The notes below the pieces were generated by a model. It made no database searches, was not told where the DNA came from, and was given only the letters and a program-made list of their open reading frames with translations. From Methanogenium sp. MK-MG (lineage in GTDB: Archaea > Halobacteriota > Methanomicrobia > Methanomicrobiales > Methanomicrobiaceae): a stretch of DNA of 62,801 nt. The stretch is from positions 1 through 62,801 of the forward strand of contig NZ_JAAAWJ010000004.1 in assembly GCF_009914725.1 (NCBI RefSeq). The letters are read 5' to 3'. Made by a program: the position numbers and the translations under genes. This document shows, piece after piece, positions 51,090 to 55,705 of the stretch. Within the stretch, counting starts at the first letter, position 1. Each line of letters begins with the position of its first letter.

Positions 51090-51350
51090 TTAGTATCTTC
51101 TGTATTCGGTGCGCGGTCTCTGAGGACGTGCTTCATCGATTCTAAGTGTGCGGCCTTCGAAGTCGGTCTCATTGAGAGCTTCCATTGCCTTCTCTGCCTC
51201 TTCAACGGTGCCCATCTCAACGAACCCAAATCCTTTGCGCTCAATGACACGGACGTCCTTAACATCGCCAAAATCTTCAAATATTTCTTTGAGTTGAGCT
51301 TCCGTAACTGAATACGTAAGATTGCCAACGTATAACTTGCTGCTTTCCAT
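51090..51350 (-). CDS. RRM-domain RNA-binding protein
   Basis: This 86-residue protein is a single RNA recognition motif, like the small RRM proteins of methanogens and cyanobacteria. RNP2 is KLYVGNLTYSV near residues 5-15 and RNP1 is KGFGFVEMG near residues 39-47, with the helix TEAQLKEIFEDFGDVKDVRV between. The C-terminal tail EARPQRPRTEYRRY is Arg-rich. Such proteins are often cold-responsive; the long 5' gap may hold regulatory sequence. Confidence 0.95.
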   Translation of the reverse strand: MESSKLYVGNLTYSVTEAQLKEIFEDFGDVKDVRVIERKGFGFVEMGTVEEAEKAMEALNETDFEGRTLRIDEARPQRPRTEYRRY

Positions 51351-52379: not shown

Positions 52380-53039
52380 ATGTCAGACACAAAGAAAAAA
52401 TTCGACAAAAAAGGCGCCCGCAATATGGATGAGATCGCAAAAACCATCTTTGCCCCGATATACCCGGTCATTGCAGAGAAGATCATCGGGAAGTCCGGGA
52501 TTACTAAAGGCACCTGTATTGACCTTGGCAGCGGCCCGGCGTCACTGGCAATTGCTGTCGCACAGCAGTCAGACCTCTCGGTCATTGCGCTGGACTACTC
52601 GGATGATATGCATGAATCAGCATCGCGCAATATCAAAGAAGCAGGTCTCTCTGAGCGGATACGTCTCCTTTGTGGTGATGTGCATGCCATGCCCCTTGAT
52701 GACGACTCAGCTGACCTCATCATCAGTCGGGGATCCATGTTCTTCTGGAATGACATCCACACTGCCTTCCGGGAGATATATCGTGTATTAAAACCCGGTG
52801 GCATGACCTACATCGGTGGCGGGTTTGGCAACAAAGAACTGCGGGATGAGATTTCAGCTACTATGATCAAAAAGAATCCGGACTGGAAGGAATTTAACCG
52901 AAAGAACATCTCACCTGAGAATGCGGAGCGGTTCCAGATCATGCTTGATGAAATAGGCGTGCCGAAGTACGAGATCATCCTCGGGGATGAAGGGTTCTGG
53001 ATTGTTATATCAAAGACGGCAGGCAACCCTCTGGCTTGA
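52380..53039 (+). CDS. Class I SAM-dependent methyltransferase
   Basis: This 219-residue protein has a Rossmann fold with motif I CIDLGSGPASLAIAVAQQSD near residues 46-65, acidic ALDYSDDM, and LIISRGSMFFWND, then REIYRVLKPGGMTYIGGGFG. It resembles UbiE/arsenite-type small-molecule methyltransferases. Substrate unknown. The N-terminus MSDTKKKFDKKGARNMDEIA is typical of a group of methanogen methyltransferases sometimes near corrinoid or metal genes; no such neighbour is seen here. Confidence 0.85.
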   Translation: MSDTKKKFDKKGARNMDEIAKTIFAPIYPVIAEKIIGKSGITKGTCIDLGSGPASLAIAVAQQSDLSVIALDYSDDMHESASRNIKEAGLSERIRLLCGDVHAMPLDDDSADLIISRGSMFFWNDIHTAFREIYRVLKPGGMTYIGGGFGNKELRDEISATMIKKNPDWKEFNRKNISPENAERFQIMLDEIGVPKYEIILGDEGFWIVISKTAGNPLA

Positions 53040-53654: not shown

Positions 53655-53663
53655 ATATAAATA
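53655..53663 (+). promoter_or_regulatory. Strong TATA box of the six-gene operon
   Basis: ATATAAATA is close to the archaeal consensus. It places the transcript start near 53685, only a few bases before the ATG at 53689, so the first gene is probably translated from a nearly leaderless message. Confidence 0.6.
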
Positions 53664-53688
53664 GAATCGTCCCTTGATCCGTCATCGT

Positions 53689-54129
53689 ATGGAAGGGATA
53701 GAGTTAATCATCCAGACTCGGGCATTCCCCAGCCATGGGCGGGCCCGCGTCCATGAATCAGTATTGCCCTTTCTTGGGGTAAAAGAAGGGGAAGCCATTG
53801 AGGTGTATAACATTCCTCTGAGCGAAGATGAAAAACCAAAACAGGTCATAGTCAGCATCTACGCTGATGCAATGGTCGAAAAGGGGGTGATACGAATAAG
53901 TCCGGAAGATATTGCAAAACTTGCTGCAGCGGAGGGCGACACGGTCAACGTGCAGCGAAAAGTTCCCATTACGGAAGTTATCAGTAAAAAGGTGGGCAGG
54001 ACAGGAAAGGCTGTCCAGGAAGGGGCTGGTCATGTGGGGGAAAGTATTGAAAAAGGCGCAAAAGAGGTCAGCGCAAAGATCATGCCAGGCAAAGAAAAAG
54101 ATGAACCCGAACCCGGGCCCGAGGAGTGA
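53689..54129 (+). CDS. Cdc48-N-like beta-barrel protein with amphipathic tail
   Basis: This 146-residue protein resembles the double-psi beta barrel of the Cdc48/VAT N-domain over residues 1-95. It has LIIQTRAFPSHGRARVHESV, then LPFLGVKEGEAIEVYN, and in the second half EKGVIRISPEDIAKLAAAEG followed by DTVNVQRKVP. This copies the two-fold 'GR..(V).....LGV..GE.IEV' and '+G.IRI......AG...GD.V.V' pattern. No AAA ATPase domain follows. Residues about 96-133 (VISKKVGRTGKAVQEGAGHV, GESIEKGAKEVSAKI) look like a Lys/Glu amphipathic helix with an 11-residue rhythm, which could bind membrane or another coil. The end is acidic and Pro-rich. Fold assignment is by eye. Confidence 0.65.
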   Translation: MEGIELIIQTRAFPSHGRARVHESVLPFLGVKEGEAIEVYNIPLSEDEKPKQVIVSIYADAMVEKGVIRISPEDIAKLAAAEGDTVNVQRKVPITEVISKKVGRTGKAVQEGAGHVGESIEKGAKEVSAKIMPGKEKDEPEPGPEE

Positions 54130-54137
54130 GTGGGAAA

Positions 54138-54539
54138 ATGGCCACAGAGTCATTTGCTCTTGAATGGTGGTCGTGGTTTCAGTCGCTTTTGTGGGTCATA
54201 CTCATCTTTATTGGTCTCATCATTATCTTTTACATCATCAGGGAGATACACGATGCAAAAGTGACACCCCGGCTCGCAGAGATTGAACTGGAGAAAGAGA
54301 AACTGCAGTTGATGAAACTCGATTATGCCCACAGGGGCCAGCCATTCTTCCGTGTCCCTCCGGAAAAACTGGAGGAGATAAACATCCTTGACCAGGAGAA
54401 TCTCAGAATGGAGGCTGACATCTTTGCGAAACAGAACGCTGTTGACCGGAGAATCCAGCGGCTGGAAAATTCAGTGAAGAGCACAAAACTGGATCATATG
54501 GTTGAAAAAATAAAAGACGAGGAGAGAAAAATCCGGTGA
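54138..54539 (+). CDS. Membrane-anchored coiled-coil protein
   Basis: This 133-residue protein of no known family has a short aromatic head (ESFALEWWSWFQSL) and one membrane helix (LLWVILIFIGLIIIFYIIRE, about residues 15-35). A long charged helix follows (LAEIELEKEKLQLMKLDYAH) and a second coil (RRIQRLENSVKSTKLDHMVE) near the C-terminus. A Pro-rich hinge, FRVPPEKLEEI, separates the coils. The ATG at 54138 is preferred because GAGGAGTGA lies nine bases upstream; a GTG at 54126 overlapping the previous stop is the alternative. It is the second gene of the operon. Confidence 0.7.
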   Translation: MATESFALEWWSWFQSLLWVILIFIGLIIIFYIIREIHDAKVTPRLAEIELEKEKLQLMKLDYAHRGQPFFRVPPEKLEEINILDQENLRMEADIFAKQNAVDRRIQRLENSVKSTKLDHMVEKIKDEERKIR

Positions 54540-54545
54540 TGAAAT

Positions 54546-54851
54546 ATGTATGAAACAGAAGTTTCCGGGACACAACAAAAGACCTCATTTACCGAATCAC
54601 TGGCATCAGTCCCCCAGGCCATTGACAGAAAGCTGCCCTCTATGGATAAACGCCTGGGCGAGTACCTTGATGCCCATATCGCACCCCTCATATCAGAATG
54701 GGGACTTGTCACACGCTTTACCCTGGAGGATCTTGAACACCGCCTTGATGCGGTCAGTACAGATATTAGTGGCCTGGAGAAGGAGAAAGTCACACTTAAA
54801 GACAGGGCATCTGCCCTTGAACAGGCCCTGCGTGAAGTGGAGGAGAGATGA
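54546..54851 (+). CDS. YLD-EW module protein, soluble paralogue 1
   Basis: This 101-residue protein of unknown function has residues 32-60 reading MDKRLGEYLDAHIAPLISEW, then GLVTRF. A heptad coiled coil follows (LEHRLDAVSTDISGLEKEKV, ASALEQALREVEER). The motif YLDxHxxxxxxEWxL recurs in the two following genes. The N-terminal 30 residues are polar. It starts six bases after the previous stop with GGTGATG upstream, and its TGA overlaps the next ATG. Confidence 0.7.
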   Translation: MYETEVSGTQQKTSFTESLASVPQAIDRKLPSMDKRLGEYLDAHIAPLISEWGLVTRFTLEDLEHRLDAVSTDISGLEKEKVTLKDRASALEQALREVEER

Positions 54852-55075
54852 TGGCAGGATTTGACGATTACATGAATACCTATCTTGACCGCAGGATGAA
54901 GGATATCATTGGAGAGTGGAATCTGGGCACGATGCAGGATTTTGGAGATTATCGGAGTCGTCTGCGCCTGGTAGAGACTGACATACGGGAGATGGGGCAG
55001 TTCACACAGGATGCTGATGCAAAACTCACCGATATGGAACAGAGGCTTGAGAAAGTCAGGGAGGAGAAGCGATGA
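54848..55075 (+). CDS. YLD-EW module protein, soluble paralogue 2 (minimal form)
   Basis: This 75-residue protein is only the shared module: GFDDYMNTYLDRRMKDIIGE, then WNLGTMQDFGDYRSRLRLVE and a coiled end (KLTDMEQRLEKVREEKR). It aligns without gaps to its neighbours over YLDxxxxxxxxEWxL. Two adjacent ATGs (54848 and 54851) are possible starts. Overlaps of four bases on both sides indicate coupled translation at matched levels. Confidence 0.7.
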   Translation: MMAGFDDYMNTYLDRRMKDIIGEWNLGTMQDFGDYRSRLRLVETDIREMGQFTQDADAKLTDMEQRLEKVREEKR

Positions 55076-55413
55076 CCATAACTGAGGTTCTCCTGACAAT
55101 CATCGTCATTGCAATCATCGCATTCATTCTCTATTACTATTTCAGAGGATCATCCGGGCATGTGTCAATCAGCCGTCCGATGGAAAGCCGGGTGGACGAG
55201 TATCTGGACCGCCACTTTGAACATATGGTTGAAGAATGGTCCCTGATGGATACATACCAGGTACGAACATTTCGTGAACACAATGACCCGGCGCTCACAG
55301 AAGAAGAAAACCGGATGAATGGCCTGAAAGAATTCAGGCATGAAATGACGGATACCCTTGCAGGCCTGGAGGAGCGTCTGAATGTTTTGGAAAGAGAAAC
55401 CCGCAGTGAATAA
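55072..55413 (+). CDS. YLD-EW module protein, membrane-anchored paralogue
   Basis: This 113-residue protein has an N-terminal membrane helix (EVLLTIIVIAIIAFILYYYF, residues 5-24) followed by a Gly/Ser linker. The module MESRVDEYLDRHFEHMVEEW then SL begins at about residue 37, and a coil (MTDTLAGLEERLNVLERETR) ends the protein. This is the third copy of the YLD-EW unit and the only one tied to the membrane, so it may recruit the two soluble copies. The 3' end overlaps the zinc-finger gene by 32 bases. Confidence 0.7.
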   Translation: MTITEVLLTIIVIAIIAFILYYYFRGSSGHVSISRPMESRVDEYLDRHFEHMVEEWSLMDTYQVRTFREHNDPALTEEENRMNGLKEFRHEMTDTLAGLEERLNVLERETRSE

Positions 55414-55705
55414 CCGGGCCCATAAACCGGAACTGTTTTACTCACGCCTGAAAGGGGACATCCCTTCGATGCGGAAACAGGGTGAACCTCCGCATAAGGA
55501 CCCATCCTCCTTCTCAAAGCATTACTGTGATCTCTGCAACGATACCTTTTCCCTCACCGTGTTACGCCAGTGCACCCTCTGCGGCAGATGGGCCTGTTCG
55601 TCCTGCTGGACACAGGAATTCTATGTCTGCAACTCCTGTCATGGCACCTATAAACTCCATATTCAGCCATTGCTGCAGTCTGGTTCTGTTGAAAACAAGG
55701 AATGA
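55382..55705 (+). CDS. FYVE-like zinc-finger protein
   Basis: This 107-residue protein has a polar N-terminus of about 45 residues (including KPELFYSRLKGDIPSMRKQG) and then an eight-cysteine finger: CDLCNDTFSLTVLRQCTLCG, RWACSSCWTQEFYVCNSCHG. The spacing C-x2-C-x12-C-x2-C-x4-C-x2-C-x8-C-x2-C and the FS.TV.R..C..CG core closely resemble eukaryotic FYVE fingers. The phosphoinositide-binding basic RHHC patch is absent. It could also be an independent cross-brace or a pair of zinc ribbons. It is the last gene of the operon; the start is inferred from an ATG in frame with the conserved part. Confidence 0.65.
   Translation: MFWKEKPAVNNRAHKPELFYSRLKGDIPSMRKQGEPPHKDPSSFSKHYCDLCNDTFSLTVLRQCTLCGRWACSSCWTQEFYVCNSCHGTYKLHIQPLLQSGSVENKE

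Follow-up and report, generated by a model that had tools for sequence, protein, structure and literature searches.

Methanogenium sp. MK-MG carries a block of six closely packed genes (g1 to g6) whose products combine a Cdc48-type barrel, membrane-anchored coiled coils and a cysteine-rich finger, and the locus raises the question of what these proteins form together and what such an assembly would do for the cell. The block lies within a stretch of 62,801 nucleotides of contig NZ_JAAAWJ010000004.1, analysed here as a whole and termed the window. An earlier sequence-only reading had described six plus-strand ORFs at 53689-55705 behind a TATA box, and all six were confirmed at those coordinates. 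The features of the locus are as follows.

53655-53664, + strand: TATA-like box ATATAAATAG, candidate promoter
53689-54129, + strand: g1, ORF
53689..53973, + strand: g1 residues 1-95, double-psi beta-barrel, Nn half of the Cdc48/p97/VAT N-domain
53974..54129, + strand: g1 C-terminal amphipathic tail with 11-residue (hendecad) periodicity
54138-54539, + strand: g2, one membrane helix near the N-terminus (about residues 14-36), then a coiled coil on the cytoplasmic side
54546-54851, + strand: g3, soluble YLD-EW module protein
54848-55075, + strand: g4, soluble, shortest YLD-EW module protein
55072-55413, + strand: g5, YLD-EW module protein with membrane anchor (TM at about residues 3-25)
55382-55705, + strand: g6, Prok-RING_2 (PF14445) Cys4-Cys4 binuclear finger

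Organization and distribution of the six-gene block

Forty neighbourhoods of the finger gene g6, each of 10 kb (some shorter, at contig ends) and drawn from 17 genera, were compared, or 41 loci with the window. In this gene-neighbourhood survey, which the sequence-only reading had proposed and to which we added the distribution across the order, all six genes retained the same order and orientation in 40 of 40 related loci, an arrangement far beyond chance, and the genes flanking the block were common to close relatives only. Intergenic distances from g1 to g6 in the window are +8, +6, -4, -4 and -32 nt, the last three spacings thus linking four genes by three overlaps, in agreement with the tight packing and the four joined genes noted earlier. 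The ATGA overlap of g3 with g4 is present in 31 of the 41 loci and that of g4 with g5 in 33, and g5 and g6 overlap by 23-50 nt in every one. About 25 nt separate the TATA-like box ATATAAATAG from the first ATG, a position that makes it likely, as a prediction from sequence, that the transcript is leaderless or nearly so; AT-rich boxes occur at about -30 from the g1 start in many of the 41 loci.

Two genes upstream of the operon were also noted. A SAM-dependent methyltransferase (52380-53039, + strand) is kept only in close Methanogenium relatives, and a small RRM-like RNA-binding protein, identified by eye (MESSKLYVGNLTY...), is encoded at 51090-51350 (- strand); a protein of the latter kind is unusual in an archaeon.

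The finger gene (PF14445) was found above the family cut-off in 90 of 232 genomes of the class and at E <= 0.001 in 57 of 135 good genomes, with the cluster present in approximately 42% of good Methanomicrobiales genomes. Strong finger matches in the phylum sample were confined to Methanomicrobiales, those elsewhere being weak, and by such searches the cluster appears to be scarcely present beyond that order. Failure of the genes to co-occur in relatives had been set beforehand as a refutation of the sequence-only reading, and no such failure was observed: the g5 profile also detects 90 of the 232 genomes, and g5 and g6 coincide in 88 of the 90 genomes of each. The g1 profile retrieves nearly the same set of genomes as the finger, and the exceptions to co-occurrence of g1, g5 and g6, where inspected, are mostly truncated contigs or contig ends. 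Genera mostly hold together in a tree built from the concatenated proteins, in which members from the Methanomicrobiaceae nest among another family.

Clusters comprising g1 to g5 without the finger occur in one genus (genomes G220, G222 and G229) and in G125, and partial finger-less copies are present in G203; g1 to g5 therefore constitute the core, with g6 an add-on in at least some settings. Several further copies are recorded as individual observations. Genome G171 bears two g1 genes without g2 to g6 (L106, L107), one of them apparently truncated at its TrkA_C end. A complete operon (L077, G202:C196) falls inside the Methanogenium clade, though its genome is from another genus, and represents either contamination or recent transfer. 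In Methanogenium sp. MK-MG itself, contig C16 (3330-3545, L002) contains a decayed g1 fragment with several stops and about 80% DNA identity, adjoining an oleate-hydratase-like gene (named by eye); as a fragment with stops, it was rejected as a second system.

The component proteins

The first protein, g1, was expected from the earlier reading to be a Cdc48-N-like barrel lacking an ATPase and followed by an amphipathic tail, and both parts of that description were borne out. CDC48_N (PF02359) matches 38 of the 41 g1 members, the window protein scoring 29.9 bits, under the Pfam cut-off of 35.1. An AF2 model of g1 is confident over residues 1-90 (barrel blocks mostly at pLDDT 84-95) and low after residue 100 or so; its best PDB matches by Foldseek are all Cdc48/p97 N-domains or VAT barrels, with E down to 4e-8 and a target TM-score of 0.85 against barrel-only structures. 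On this basis g1 comprises the Nn half only: the model covers about 95 residues and matches the barrel alone, no complete Nn+Nc N-domain was found in g1, and no AAA match was obtained in any of the six proteins. Outside the operon, g1 is most closely related to the N-domains of two proteins named by eye, a Cdc48-like ATPase of 815 residues and a phosphorylase-like protein of 526 residues. The tail has a hydrophobic-moment peak at 96-100 degrees, corresponding to 11-residue periodicity, and Pfam Apolipoprotein matches occur in 11 g1 members and ApoLp-III matches in five (of 41), features by which it is predicted to rest on lipid. Sequence searches of the PDB contributed nothing beyond Cdc48-type barrels, apolipoproteins and coiled coils.

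At the other end of the block, the eight-cysteine finger predicted earlier is conserved with fixed spacing. The window g6 matches Prok-RING_2 (PF14445) at E 9e-24 (83.9 bits against a cut-off of 22.4), and all 41 g6 members match the family, the best at 2.6e-38; the Prok-RING families reportedly originate with Burroughs, Iyer and Aravind in 2011. The spacing C-x2-C-x11-C-x2-C-x4-C-x2-C-x7-C-x2-C holds in 40 of 41 members, which have eight Cys, no His ligand, and C-x4-C between ligands 4 and 5. Measured against the RING definition, a C3HC4 or C3H2C3 cross-brace with a His ligand and RING spacing, g6 fails. The top fold matches of g6 are FYVE domains of Hrs, ZFYVE proteins, Vps27 and EEA1, the best at a non-significant E of 0.08; a RING-labelled structure first appears at rank 25 (the Slp4 finger, of Rab-effector type) and a classical RING at rank 46. 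FYVE_2 matches 23 of the 41 members, with the window protein below cut-off, and the basic RRHHCR phosphoinositide motif of FYVE is absent from the g6 sequences. In spacing and predicted fold, g6 would thus stand closer to FYVE/PHD fingers than to RING E3s, the fold matches themselves not being significant. A TFIIE match of g6 was weak and local (E 0.0025) and was set aside.

These properties of g1 and g6 bear directly on a reading of the operon as a ubiquitin-like E3 or Cdc48-linked degradation module, ERAD-like in kind, in which g6 would be a RING E3, g1 would bind substrates or the Cdc48 ATPase, and the anchors would place both at the membrane. The filing of g6 under Prok-RING_2 speaks for it, as do the Cdc48 N type of the g1 barrel and the identity of its best outside homologue, the N-domain of a Cdc48-like ATPase. 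The ligands and spacing of g6 nevertheless defeat the RING E3 reading, and the finger is missing from the duplicate clusters; g1 lacks the Nc half, Nc and Nn together forming the UBX groove of p97; and a scan of the flanking proteins, for which only the commonest families were listed, brought no E1-, E2- or Ubl-like gene to notice. We judge such a module improbable. The Cdc48-adaptor analogy drawn in the sequence-only reading is weakened on the same grounds, as the barrel is present but is an Nn half only, with no ATPase and no ubiquitin-type partner noticed nearby.

Between g1 and g6 lie the proteins that would tie the complex to the membrane. A single N-terminal membrane helix is present in g2 and in g5, in 41 of 41 members of each, and no TM segment in g1, g3, g4 or g6, so that the two anchors originally proposed are the only ones. 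Positive charge is greater after the helix than before it in all 41 members of both families, by which the C-terminus of g2 and g5 is predicted to lie inside. The conserved part of g2 is its C-terminal half.

That g3, g4 and g5 are paralogues, one of them membrane-anchored, was upheld by their profiles, which detect one another at about 1e-6 to 1e-13, and by a combined alignment, in which the shared module consists of [YF]-x-D, eight residues, [ED]-W, and then a coiled coil. Full-length module matches in the phylum sample were obtained only from genomes with the cluster, usually three per genome. Outside the order, matches are limited to the coiled-coil half of the profile, which is generic, and fall mostly in long ORFs; these were set aside. 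Weak matches of the archaellum protein FlaC, at coiled-coil level, were likewise rejected. Pfam, NCBIfam and PADLOC matches of g2 to g5 proved to be coiled-coil or membrane-helix noise only. The earlier reading, which recognized no known pathway in any of the proteins, is corrected for g6, a member of PF14445, and its interpretation is partly supported.

Neighbouring genes and possible roles

Compact arrangement, fixed gene content and order, two anchors at the inner face and shared modules fit a stoichiometric, membrane-tethered assembly. Indications of its role come mainly from genes nearby. DUF308/HdeD was the commonest flanking Pfam family (seven of 135 flanking proteins), and an HdeD/DUF308 homologue lies within about 4 kb of the operon in seven of 17 genera, in several different arrangements; none occurs near the operon in the window or in several genera. 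Among 18 closed or nearly closed genomes, having 2-6 HdeD genes each, HdeD falls within 4.5 kb of the finger in six versus 0.20 expected, all six from two genera, a statistic that takes genera as independent and is to that extent approximate. We know of no demonstrated function for HdeD-type proteins in methanogens. A membrane-linked metallophosphoesterase also recurs as a neighbour in several genera, as does a DUF2238-like membrane protein (named by eye; the one tested had no Pfam match).

The finger-less g1-g5 clusters of one genus (L113, corresponding to G222:C14:1-19000, with L114 and L115) reside in an island of envelope-stress-like character that also includes metallophosphoesterase, a ClC channel, DUF2150, a PLD-type cardiolipin-synthase-like protein, HdeD, DUF937, PspA, PspAB and HtpX (M48). 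PspA lies about 7.5 kb from the cluster in G222 and G229, and the contig piece of G220 ends before PspA; the finger-less fragment in G203 adjoins an HtpX-like gene. This island goes back in essence to a single evolutionary event and concerns the copy without the finger. Homology searches of the fetched flanks of finger-bearing operons yielded no PspA, HtpX or PspAB, and no PspA was found among the six proteins or in the genome of Methanogenium sp. MK-MG. Across the class, PspA is present in 16 of 232 genomes and neither tracks nor opposes the operon, a lack of pattern for which it was rejected as an alternative or obligate partner.

From the membrane-stress neighbours, HdeD and the PspA island, the assembly may serve to preserve membrane integrity under stress. 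Our preferred explanation, to which we assign slightly less than an even chance, is that one operon specifies a hetero-oligomeric scaffold at the cytoplasmic face of the membrane, most likely serving to withstand or repair membrane (envelope) stress; its operon and membrane components are much safer than the stress component. Gene content and order, the overlaps, the anchors and coiled coils of g2 and g5, the YLD-EW module, the barrel and tail of g1 and the C4C4 finger of g6 are established by computation. Mechanistically, g3, g4 and g5 would bundle through their YLD-EW coiled coils, and g5 would hold that bundle at the membrane beside g2. The g1 protein may sit on the lipid surface by its tail and present the barrel as a binding platform, with g6 as a putative optional adaptor made together with g5. 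Judging from its neighbours, the assembly may share a part in membrane homeostasis with HdeD-type proteins; its partners in one genus might also include PspA, HtpX and the lipid-synthase-like enzyme. Archaeal sensing and repair of damage to ether-lipid membranes is poorly known, and six defined genes are now testable, cultured strains included. If the explanation is correct, the Methanomicrobiales own a membrane-maintenance machine that occurs in over 40% of good genomes, has stayed together as a unit amid changing flanks, and is without a homologue in bacterial Psp/Lia or archaeal ESCRT systems.

Conceivable, if on balance unlikely, is that the operon defines a new archaeal sub-membrane assembly built on a heteromeric YLD-EW module, in which the barrel and apolipoprotein-like helix of g1, with the FYVE-like finger, would form a membrane recruitment device. 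A Cdc48-type barrel, an apolipoprotein-like helix and a FYVE-like finger are usually discussed in the context of eukaryotic membrane traffic, and this reading, if true, would mean that archaea employ components otherwise familiar from membrane traffic and quality control in eukaryotes.

As improbable as the degradation module, in our estimation, is a membrane-remodelling or trafficking machine analogous to ESCRT and acting in vesicle formation or division. Coiled-coil subunits on a membrane, an amphipathic helix and a FYVE-like finger would suit it, and a precedent exists in the Cdc48-N barrels found in an archaeal ESCRT-like Vps4 ATPase (PMC11188069); yet the six proteins include no ESCRT-III/Snf7, Vps4 or any ATPase, and an operon restricted to one order and absent from more than half of genomes is therefore unneeded for division.

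The TrkA_C domain that follows the g1 tail in eight of 41 proteins (L050, L059-L061 and L070-L073, in two clades of the concatenated tree) is possibly a ligand sensor. Together with the ClC channel in the island of the duplicate, it could point to an osmo- or ion-sensing regulator, with TrkA_C as the ligand-sensing part and the membrane complex gating or recruiting a transporter; most g1 proteins, including that of the window, nonetheless lack TrkA_C, and no conserved channel was found in the flanks of the six-gene form, which leaves this regulator very doubtful. Still less credible is the coat of an intracellular body (lipid, polyester or gas-filled) with g1 as a phasin or perilipin. The apolipoprotein-like g1 tails are compatible with it, and 16 of 75 module sequences give weak, coiled-coil-level phasin matches; these are coiled-coil noise (82 families were matched in all), two subunits are anchored by true membrane helices, and no polyester or storage genes recur nearby. 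An anti-virus defence system, suggested by patchy presence across genomes, is judged most improbable, the sole PADLOC match being weak (PbeC, E 0.004, over a coiled-coil stretch), inheritance being mostly genus-coherent, and no relatives having been found in viral contigs.

Comparison with known systems

No description emerged from literature searches on PF14445, Prok-RING and RING proteins of the Methanomicrobiales, and none of the papers searched names PF14445; an earlier mention of the operon is possible, and the finger family itself has been catalogued already. Parts of the system can be set beside known counterparts. The finger g6 is a clear member of Prok-RING_2 (PF14445), but its ligand spacing and predicted fold are nearer FYVE/PHD, and no ubiquitin-type partner was noticed nearby. 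With FYVE and Rab-effector fingers (FYVE, FYVE_2) it shares the C4C4 spacing and a C-x2-C-G-x3-C-x2-C core, but lacks the RRHHCR motif, and the fold matches to these fingers are not significant. With the Cdc48/p97/VAT N-domain (CDC48_N, PF02359), g1 shares the double-psi barrel fold, but it has the Nn half only, fused to an amphipathic tail in place of the AAA+ ATPase; with no ATPase and half an N-domain, the operon is therefore not a Cdc48 machine. One variant of archaeal ESCRT (PMC11188069) likewise has a Cdc48-N-type barrel and coiled coils at the membrane, whereas the six-gene operon is without ESCRT-III, Vps4 or a winged-helix protein and, having no Snf7 or Vps4, is not ESCRT.

There is a likeness in general plan to the PSP, Lia and YdjFGHI systems, whose operons also combine bitopic membrane proteins of small size with coiled coils in the cytoplasm and a partner that binds zinc, and the duplicate copy sits in a PspA-PspAB-HtpX island. 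Under the terms searched, nothing comparable appeared in a PSP survey (PMC11237479): Cdc48, HtpX, HdeD, FYVE and words beginning 'Methano' do not occur there, and the few 'ring' occurrences inspected refer to plots. The operon contains no homologue of PspA, PspB, PspC, Toastrack or Band-7 and, lacking PspA, is not a PSP system; by analogy, it would resemble Psp/Lia or YdjFGHI in its proposed action, with no component homologous to theirs.
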